Positions 52,035-54,407 of a stretch of 64,000 nt of DNA are shown in pieces. Made by a program: the position numbers and the translations under genes. How positions within the stretch are numbered: position 1 is the first letter of the stretch; the number at the start of each line of letters is the position of its first letter. The notes under the pieces are model-generated. The model worked only from the letters and a program-made list of their open reading frames with translations. It made no database searches and had not been told where the DNA came from. Source of the DNA: Pedobacter gandavensis (GTDB lineage: Bacteria; Bacteroidota; Bacteroidia; Sphingobacteriales; Sphingobacteriaceae); the NCBI RefSeq assembly GCF_014172405.1, contig NZ_WNXC01000003.1, forward strand, positions 372,001 to 436,000. The letters run 5' to 3'.

Positions 52035-52042
52035 TAACTTTG
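52035..52042 (+). promoter_or_regulatory. -7 element of lipA
   Basis: TAACTTTG, full TAnnTTTG match, ending 4 nt before the lipA ATG, the same geometry as at ribH. No -33 TTTG at 19-21 nt. Confidence 0.45.
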
Positions 52043-52046
52043 CCTC

Positions 52047-52925
52047 ATGATCGAACTTCCGGTTGTTTCCGCAAACACAGTACAACGTAAACCTGATTGG
52101 CTTAGAGTTAAGCTTCCTGTTGGTAAAGAATATGCACAAGTACGTAGTCTGGTAGACACGCATAAACTGCATACCATTTGCGAAAGTGGCAATTGCCCAA
52201 ATATGGGCGAATGCTGGGGTGCTGGTACTGCAACCTTTATGATTCTTGGAAATATCTGTACGCGTTCCTGCTCTTTCTGTGCAGTAGCAACCGGCAGACC
52301 ATTGGCTGTAGATACAGATGAGCCAAATCGTGTGGCGAACTCGGTGAAACTGATGCAGGTAAAACACTGTGTAATCACTTCCGTAGATAGAGATGACCTG
52401 AAAGATGGTGGTTCTATCATCTGGGCAGAAACATTACAGGCAATCAGGAGAGAAAGTCCGGAAACTACATTAGAAACCTTAATCCCTGACTTTAGAGGGA
52501 TCTGGGATAATTTATACCGCGTACTGGAAGAAAGACCAGAGGTGATGTCTCATAATATTGAAACGGTAAGACGTTTGACCAAACAAGTGCGCATCCAGGC
52601 TAAATATGATCGAAGTTTAGAGTGCCTTAAACGCATTTCAGATTTTGGATTGAGAACCAAAACCGGTATTATGCTGGGTTTGGGTGAAACCGAAGAAGAT
52701 GTTTATGAAGCAATGGACGATCTGGTAGCCAATGGCGTACACATCCTAACCTTAGGACAATACCTACAGCCTACCCGCAACCACCATCCGGTGCTGGACT
52801 GGATTCATCCAGATCAGTTTGCAAAATATAAAGAAGTAGGCATGGCTAAAGGATTTAAATATGTAGAAAGCGGACCATTGGTACGTTCTTCTTATCATGC
52901 TGAAAAACACCTATTTGATTTATAA
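52047..52925 (+). CDS. lipA: Lipoyl synthase
   Basis: Radical-SAM enzyme that inserts two sulfurs into protein-bound octanoyl groups to form lipoate. The 292-aa protein carries the auxiliary-cluster Cys set in [16 protein letters not shown] and the radical-SAM CxxxCxxC in [29 protein letters not shown] and [17 protein letters not shown] are family blocks, and the C-terminal [13 protein letters not shown] has the RSSY motif that supplies the cluster-binding Ser. LipB is not in the window. Confidence 0.98.
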
Positions 52926-52956
52926 TCTGCAGGAATCAAACAAATATTAAATTTTC

Positions 52957-53001
52957 TTGTTAAGGTTTACGGTATATCTGTATATTAGTAAACCTTGACA
53001 A
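52957..53001. promoter_or_regulatory. 14-nt inverted repeat over promoter and start codon of the ECF sigma gene
   Basis: Left arm TTGTTAAGGTTTAC (52957-52970), right arm GTAAACCTTGACAA (52988-53001), 17-nt spacer; 13 of 14 pairs are Watson-Crick and the other is G-T. The right arm contains the TTG start codon. The spacer holds TATATTAG (52981-52988), a near -7 element 21 nt from TTG at 52957-52959. Confidence 0.7.
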
Positions 53002-53546
53002 CGAACAATAAAATCTCCCTCACTGAAGAACAACTCGTTCTGGCCTTAAAGGCTCAGGACACCAATGCTATGAAAGCATTGTACGATATGTATTCAGCCT
53101 CTTTGTTTGGTGTCATTTCCCGAATCGTAGTTCATACCGAAGTCGCGGAAGATATATTACAAGAAACTTTCTTGAAAATCTGGAATTCGGCAGGTACTTA
53201 TGATGTCTCTAAAGGCCGTCTATTTACCTGGATGATGAATATTGCCCGGAATTTAGCTATCGATAAGCTCCGTTCAAAAGATTTTAAGAATGCCAGCAAA
53301 AACCAAGACATCGAAAATAACGTAGATTTCGTTGACGCACAGAAAGAAACAACTTTCAACGCAGATGTGATTGGTTTAAAAGACATGGTGACTGCGCTTA
53401 AACCGGAATTCACCAATGTGTTGGATATGGTTTATTTTAAAGGCTATACACACGTCGAAGCGGCAGAAGAATTGGATTTGCCATTGGGAACGGTTAAAAC
53501 CCGCATCCGGATGGCTATTATGGAATTAAGAAAGCATTTTAATTAA
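52995..53546 (+). CDS. ECF-type RNA polymerase sigma factor
   Basis: Sigma-70 family group 4 factor of 183 aa. Start TTG at 52995 is the only start that keeps the N-terminus; the next Met would cut into region 2. Region 2 runs from ALYDMYSASLFGVISRIV to TWMMNIARNLAIDKLRS, with AEDILQETFLKIWNSA for -10 recognition; region 4 is FTNVLDMVYFKGYTHVEAAEELDLPLGTVKTRIRMAIMELRK. It is followed without a gap by an anti-sigma gene. A long inverted repeat covers its start, so its own production is probably controlled. It resembles the SigK/RskA pair type; the signal is unknown. Confidence 0.93.
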   Translation: MTTNNKISLTEEQLVLALKAQDTNAMKALYDMYSASLFGVISRIVVHTEVAEDILQETFLKIWNSAGTYDVSKGRLFTWMMNIARNLAIDKLRSKDFKNASKNQDIENNVDFVDAQKETTFNADVIGLKDMVTALKPEFTNVLDMVYFKGYTHVEAAEELDLPLGTVKTRIRMAIMELRKHFN

Positions 53547-54407
53547 GTGGAAGAGGGAAAAGCATATATCGAATCAGGCATACTTGAACTTTACGTTCTC
53601 GGCGAGCTTACAACGCAGGAACAACGGGAAGTAGAGGCAATGGCAGCAAAATATCCGGAAATAAAAAAGGAGATCAGTGCCATTGAGCTTGCTATGGAAA
53701 ATTATGCCCTGGAAAACGCGATTACACCATCTGCAGAGTTGGAGCGCATCATTCTGGAGAAAATCACACCGAAGGGAAAAGAAACACCTGTTGCCCCTAC
53801 TACAGCTCTATTGGCCAGTCAGCAGTCAGGAGTGTTGCCTATTCATCAAGCAGGATATGAATCAAAAATAAGGACCTTAAAATTTGCCTTAGCAGCTTGT
53901 GCAGCATTGCTATTAATAACAGGCATTGCGCTTTATTCTGCACATACAGAATTAGATACTGCAAAAAATCAAATCATCGCCCTAAATCAGGATAAGCAAC
54001 GATTTGCCACCACGGTAAATTACCTGGAAGGAACCAATAAAGAATTGCAAACTATTGCAGATATGCCTGCTGATCCGGATTGGAAAATAGTACGTTTGGC
54101 AGGGACAGAAATGGACCCTGAGGCAAAAATGACGGTTTATTGGCATACTTCGGGTCGCCATGTGATGCTGGACAATACCAAAATGGGACTTCCTAAAAAC
54201 GATGACGCACACCAATATCAATTGTGGGCATTGGTCAAAGGTAAACCTGTTGACCTTGGTGTATTTGATGTGAACGCAGACAGCAGTCACATCCTCTTAA
54301 AAATGAAGGAAATTGCAGGTGCTGATGCTTTTGCTGTGACTTTAGAGAAAAGAGGTGGTTCAGCTGCTCCTACGATGGACCAAATGATTGCCAAAGGTGG
54401 CGTTTAA
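53547..54407 (+). CDS. RskA-like anti-sigma factor
   Basis: Membrane-bound anti-sigma factor of 286 aa. It starts at GTG directly after the sigma stop codon, so the two are translated together. The N-terminal cytosolic part (YIESGILELYVLGELTTQEQREVEAMAAKYPEI) is the anti-sigma domain; one membrane segment lies at about 112-132 (LKFALAACAALLLITGIALY). A coiled coil (DTAKNQIIALNQDKQRFATTVNYLEGTNKEL) leads to a periplasmic RskA_C domain, KMTVYWHTSGRHVMLDNTKM with LPKNDDAHQYQLWALVKGKPVDLG. Release probably needs regulated proteolysis; this is by analogy with RskA. Confidence 0.92.
   Translation: MEEGKAYIESGILELYVLGELTTQEQREVEAMAAKYPEIKKEISAIELAMENYALENAITPSAELERIILEKITPKGKETPVAPTTALLASQQSGVLPIHQAGYESKIRTLKFALAACAALLLITGIALYSAHTELDTAKNQIIALNQDKQRFATTVNYLEGTNKELQTIADMPADPDWKIVRLAGTEMDPEAKMTVYWHTSGRHVMLDNTKMGLPKNDDAHQYQLWALVKGKPVDLGVFDVNADSSHILLKMKEIAGADAFAVTLEKRGGSAAPTMDQMIAKGGV

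Follow-up and report, generated by a model that had tools for sequence, protein, structure and literature searches.

A conserved promoter and non-ATG start, probably giving a leaderless mRNA, lie beneath a clade-specific inverted repeat at an ECF sigma factor gene of Pedobacter

In the transposase genes of IS10 and IS50, transcripts that arrive from outside have the start paired within an inverted repeat, and transcripts from the internal promoter omit one arm; both are mobile elements with terminal repeats. In the SigK-RskA system, a mutation of the sigK start codon, in work from 2005 ascribed to Charlet, reportedly lowers antigen expression in M. bovis BCG. In phage T4, long early transcripts of gene e hide the start, and late promoters situated in the 5' strand of the hairpin give open transcripts, as described in PMC3014915; gene e shares with soc, 49 and I-TevI the sequestration of the start in an RNA helix of longer transcripts. 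Among the Bacteroidota, 5.5% of the examined mRNAs of Flavobacterium psychrophilum are given as leaderless (PMC9723704), and about 3.7% of the 5' UTRs of Bacteroides thetaiotaomicron are given as under 10 nt (PMC7366714). In the survey of Zheng 2011, 1 of 37 Bacteroidetes/Chlorobi genomes had leaderless genes, with the caution that the survey's own Pribnow-box method may underestimate them (PMC3160421). Shine-Dalgarno sequences are described as absent in Bacteroidetes in PMC6847099. On leaderless mRNAs of E. coli and Caulobacter, alternative starts are reported to be much less efficient than AUG, UUG being named for E. coli (PMC9031893).

The locus lies in a 64,000-nt stretch of the Pedobacter gandavensis genome (contig NZ_WNXC01000003.1, positions 372,001 to 436,000), referred to here as the window, and all of its features are on the plus strand. 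The lipA gene for lipoyl synthase (52047-52925; Pfam Radical_SAM and LIAS_N), a possible source of read-through transcripts, ends 69 nt before the TTG start codon at 52995 of an ECF sigma factor gene (52995-53546; Pfam Sigma70_r2, Sigma70_r4 and Sigma70_ECF), which is the distance given in the initial annotation. This TTG is the first usable start of the sigma gene because an in-frame TAA (52989-52991) directly precedes it. An anti-sigma factor gene (53547-54407; Pfam RskA_C, PF10099) opens with a GTG directly after the sigma stop, the TAA and the GTG abutting at 53544-53549. The combination of sigma-70 regions 2 and 4 with an adjoining RskA_C protein assigns the pair, by Pfam, to ECF sigma factors with RskA-type anti-sigma factors. 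The best NCBIfam model for the sigma protein is SigK (NF007228), which together with the RskA_C neighbour recalls SigK-RskA; the score of 121.4 bits does not reach the SigK family cut-off of 226 bits. The Pedobacter gene differs from SigK-RskA in its sigma-A type promoter and its conserved UUG/GUG start.

Relatives were gathered by protein searches, in which 96 of 99 genomes of the genus matched at an E-value of 1e-20 (genomes with only a paralogue and the window's own genome included) and 79 of 151 family genomes, spread over 14 of 25 genera, matched at 1e-60 (own genome again included). Among the matches listed, 78 of the best 80 named loci are labelled Pedobacter. From part of the matches 199 loci were collected and 198 were analysed, the remaining one (L001) being a second copy of the window. 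At least 100 nt of upstream sequence was available for 196 of the 198, and these gave 137 distinct upstream sequences, the window included. When 145 genomes of the genus were searched at the DNA level, 33 matches were obtained at an E-value of 1e-30, and a fifth species (G259, locus L247) joined the window's clade; this locus stands outside the 137 sequences and the four-member folding comparison, and inside the five-species alignment and the simulation.

A sigma-A type -7 box, TATATTAG (52981-52988, recognized by sequence), ends 6 nt before the sigma TTG. In 103 of the 137 distinct loci the start is preceded at 4-9 nt by a box of the form TA..TT[TAC]G; between 20 and 89 nt the average is 0.14 loci per position. 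Thirty of the 34 loci that lack this strict form come from other genera, and a looser form is found 3-10 nt before the start in 117 loci, the 20 without it comprising 3 from Pedobacter and 17 from other genera. The sigma-A box of F. psychrophilum, TAnnTTTG, is placed at -12 to -5 (PMC9723704), and when this spacing is applied to the conserved box, leaders of 0-5 nt are predicted; in the window the predicted leader is the 2-nt CC, with transcription starting at 52993. With the box at 4-9 nt and leaders of this predicted length, the sigma mRNA is probably leaderless. Its likeness to other leaderless mRNAs of Bacteroidota lies in the -7 box just 5' of the start codon, and the difference lies in the start itself, which stays non-ATG across genera.

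The first usable sigma start is TTG in 90 of the 137 loci, GTG in 45 and ATG in the remaining 2, and 134 loci have no ATG candidate between the upstream in-frame stop and 36 nt downstream. Four start-codon changes, two of them to ATG, were placed on the tree (137 leaves, tree length 12.1). Among 20 weaker matches picked from the genus search, 16 have an ATG candidate; the other four, each the sole match of its own genome, have a TTG 16-20 nt past the -7 box. The non-ATG start seems to mark the lineage of this sigma gene, and it appears to be independent of the leaderless layout because these four divergent relatives keep the TTG at the longer distance from the box. At the other end of the gene, 136 of 137 loci have a non-ATG codon as the first open start candidate between -12 and +24 nt of the sigma stop; in 49 of those 136 this putative anti-sigma start is a TTG that overlaps the sigma stop. 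In the open-access literature searched, we found no paper about this sigma gene's start or about any sigma gene with a conserved leaderless UUG. One paper mentions a single gene with a leaderless UUG, in Enterococcus faecalis (PMC7724050).

In 450 kb of the window's contig, with 358 ORFs, 27 TAnnTTTG boxes precede a first ATG by 0-9 nt, versus 2 for the reversed motif, an excess which suggests that a leaderless class exists in the P. gandavensis genome; a second peak was found 15-29 nt before the ATG (33 versus 4). In-frame starts 3-10 nt after TAnnTTTG in the same 450 kb were ATG 27, GTG 5 and TTG 5, with out-of-frame controls of 7 and 0, 0 and 1, and 6 and 1, respectively. After TAnnTT(A/C)G, the type to which the sigma gene's box belongs, they were ATG 12, TTG 3 and GTG 1, with controls of 4 and 2, 6 and 2, and 5 and 0. 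Measured against these out-of-frame counts, TTG is not enriched after the boxes. Of the 8 in-frame TTG matches, seven lie at least 60 nt inside their open frames, which leaves the sigma gene as the sole case with the TTG near the frame's beginning. The lipA gene has a -7 box of its own, TAACTTTG (52035-52042), 4 nt 5' of its ATG, and is predicted to be leaderless. It lies upstream on the same strand in 78 of the best 80 named loci, and in 74 of the 75 that could be scored an ATG follows a -7 box by 3-10 nt. The predicted leaderless genes of the 450 kb, lipA included, start mainly with ATG, unlike the sigma gene. Two candidate leaderless GTG genes were also seen on the window's contig (C15), at about 438864-441425 (plus strand) and 82726-85146 (minus strand); in each, a GTG close to the beginning of the open frame follows a TAnnTTTG box by 4 or 6 nt.

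Over the sigma promoter and start lies an inverted repeat with 14-nt arms, TTGTTAAGGTTTAC (52957-52970) and GTAAACCTTGACAA (52988-53001), and a 17-nt spacer (52971-52987) that would form the loop of a hairpin. The initial annotation had described the arms and gap correctly; 13 of the 14 pairs are Watson-Crick, and the remaining one makes a G·U in RNA. The right arm contains the start codon, as had been stated. The near -7 element that had been placed in the spacer does lie at the spacer's end, but its last base already belongs to the right arm. The first bases of the left arm, TTG(TT), stand 21 nt 5' of the box, close to -33.

That such pairing is unlikely by chance, as had also been proposed, holds for the region: among 5000 controls of the 135-nt stretch 52926-53060, one had such a repeat, defined by arms of 14 nt, 13 or more Watson-Crick pairs and a spacer of 3-30 nt. 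For a whole stretch of 64 kb it holds less well, a mean of 0.45 such repeats being expected (20 Markov controls), and 8 other sites in the window have a repeat of equal quality, all with a shorter smallest spacer. The repeat is surprising at its position and less so across a 64-kb search. No Rfam family matched at E-values up to 1 within 52800-53300. A long stem between two genes might also serve as an intrinsic terminator or attenuator of lipA, and in GTG-clade relatives (many of L050-L069) a hairpin-like sequence with a T-run behind it can be seen by eye just upstream of the promoter. Here, however, the sequence past the right arm (CGAACAATAAAA) has no T-run, and a loop of 17 nt is large; we regard a terminator as very improbable. 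In the GTG-clade loci themselves the terminator-like T-run, again by eye, leads into the TTTG at -33 (L050-L069).

The complete repeat is narrowly distributed. Fourteen of 14 RNA pairs with the right arm over the start (spacer 3-30 nt) were found in 4 of the 137 distinct loci, those of the window's species, Pedobacter sp. PLR, Pedobacter sp. N36a and P. polysacchareus, with G259 as the fifth member of the clade; elsewhere a start-covering repeat reaches 13 pairs in 4 more loci and 8-12 in the rest. In the five-species alignment, standard RNA pairs occupy 70 of 70 pair cells, with 11 of the 14 pairs invariant, two varying on one side and one on both (U-A in two species, U·G in two and C-G in one). 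Sliding the partner arm lowers the pairing to 21-49%, a comparison in which the structure was derived from the same sequences. All four arm changes reconstructed in the clade keep RNA pairing; when four random arm changes were simulated from the window's arms, all pairs were kept in fractions of 0.010, 0.019 and 0.038 of runs (kappa 1, 2 and 4), and in 0.16 with transitions only. A shuffle control on the pair count reached the observed score in 308 of 500 cases and is not significant, because only 3 of the 14 pairs vary. Both arms overlap sequence that is constrained for other reasons, namely the promoter and the coding start. The substitution evidence points to a hairpin with modest strength. 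The alignment of orthologous upstream regions, which the initial annotation had named as a check, gives a divided answer: the arms are kept within the five-species clade, where one pair has changed on both sides, and are not conserved in the wider genus.

A palindrome without function remains a serious rival. The promoter and the start would have been conserved independently, and a 9-nt insertion with a few changes in the ancestor would have given the complementarity, either by chance or through template switching, a plausible origin (a quasipalindrome mutation), with too little time since then for it to erode. The restriction of the repeat to five close species speaks for this explanation, as do the 9 nt present in the window-clade rows L002 and L074 and missing from L005 and L011 (the only rows used in this comparison), the resemblance of the right arm and of TTGTT to relatives that lack the palindrome, the chance expectation over 64 kb and the outcome of the shuffle control. 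Two results count against it: the retention of RNA pairing through all four arm changes, with a frequency of about 0.01-0.04 by simulation, and the single occurrence among the 5000 regional controls. We consider it a distinct possibility, if not a likely one. Relatives have other inverted repeats 5' of the -7 box: the best repeat reaches at least 11 Watson-Crick pairs in 10 of 137 loci (the window and PLR being two of them) versus 0 of 137 controls. L012, L013, L015, L022, L032, L038 and L084 show a different inverted repeat that spans the -33 region, roughly 25-60 nt 5' of the start; its arms in L013 are AACAAGTTCAAA and TTTGAACTTGTT.

Two interpretations of the repeat had been put forward in the initial annotation, a repressor bound to both arms or, in transcripts begun upstream, an RNA hairpin that hides the start codon. 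As a DNA operator, the arms, which flank the -7 box at a centre-to-centre distance of 31 bp, or about three helical turns, would hold a dimeric or tetrameric repressor that blocks the promoter between them. Against this, matches to the arm with at most 2 mismatches are not enriched in the genome (102+171 versus 176+217 for the reversed control), and the paired core recurs at one other genomic place, C17:32136, inside a 283-aa minus-strand open frame, the reversed control also yielding one. Furthermore, three of the arm changes in the five species leave a G·U, which is a mismatch in DNA, and the repeat is missing from relatives with the same promoter. On this evidence we regard the repressor as improbable. 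A regulon defined by the arm sequence was rejected, the reversed control matching more often. The alignment agrees a little better with a hairpin in RNA than with an operator in DNA because every pair cell holds a standard RNA pair and the two-sided pair forms a U-A, U·G, C-G series. The pair of interpretations is thus partly supported, with the RNA option modestly favoured over the repressor.

Folding predictions place the hairpin within the clade. RNA from 52900-53060 (161 nt) has a fold z of -4.04, with 0 of 200 shuffles as stable, and the predicted energy of the repeat fold is -17.3 to -21.8 kcal/mol in the five species. Over -50 to +30, four clade members have a mean z of -5.9 and a mean P(unpaired) at the start of 0.00; the mean z elsewhere is -0.48 in 54 loci with at least 71% protein identity (a group that includes L044, which starts with ATG), -0.80 in 45 GTG loci and +0.29 in 34 others. 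In per-locus folds, the start is also folded over (P unpaired under 0.2) in 15 of the 45 GTG loci and 5 of the 54 others with at least 71% identity. A hairpin conserved across the genus was rejected, and the hairpin is better described as a local addition than as a genus feature because the group mean z is near zero outside the clade. The proposal that RNA structure hides the start is somewhat strengthened, in that all 70 cells pair and the start is predicted to be paired in the four clade members, and is limited by its confinement to five species. The short 5' end predicted for a leaderless transcript is open, with P(unpaired) of 0.65-0.74 at the TTG.

We propose, with a probability of about 0.5, that the sigma gene has a leaderless non-AUG mRNA of its own and that the clade's hairpin silences read-through from lipA. 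The sigma/anti-sigma pair would be transcribed from its own sigma-A type promoter, with a leader of about 2 nt and a UUG start, and the region around this promoter forms a 14-bp inverted repeat in the five-species clade. Both arms would be present only in transcripts begun upstream, which we assume to be lipA read-through; these would fold with the start codon paired, and the sigma factor would hardly be translated from them. Transcripts from the internal promoter would lack the left arm and be open at the UUG. With the UUG hidden in the long RNA and open in the short one, the repeat would uncouple sigma synthesis from lipA transcription. The weak UUG/GUG start would probably hold sigma production low in comparison with the closely following anti-sigma factor. 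The much lower efficiency reported for UUG on leaderless mRNA in E. coli (PMC9031893) counts against the proposal, as do the 34 loci without the strict box.

In this arrangement the sigma gene resembles T4 gene e. The start is predicted to lie in the 3' arm of a stable helix in longer transcripts, and the promoter is so placed in the sequence that a transcript from the predicted start at 52993 would omit the 5' arm. It differs in its setting on a bacterial chromosome, in the ECF sigma gene that it would control, in its UUG start and in its predicted 2-nt leader; we suggest that the hairpin may work in the manner of gene e and do not claim it as a member of that type. Two points reach beyond the initial annotation: the promoter predicts a near-leaderless mRNA without the left arm, and both promoter and non-ATG start are widely conserved. 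This conserved, predicted near-leaderless non-ATG start beneath the repeat is a stronger finding than the hairpin.

A broader reading, which is tentative and in our judgement rather unlikely, is a throttle on the ECF sigma factor, in which the poor UUG/GUG start would limit sigma, the anti-sigma GUG would set the ratio, and the clade hairpin would silence read-through. UUG/GUG is kept in much of the bacterial family, on a predicted leaderless or near-leaderless mRNA in Pedobacter. A throttling role is suggested because alternative leaderless starts are described as much less efficient in E. coli (PMC9031893). If this broader reading is true, sigma would be made only via a throttled start in the one clade where read-through is silent.

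The proposed hairpin mechanism, if true, would extend the T4 logic of a promoter inside a hairpin to a chromosomal sigma factor. The predicted near-leaderless UUG/GUG start of the sigma gene and the AUG of the adjoining lipA would form a natural matched pair for the choice of start by the ribosome.
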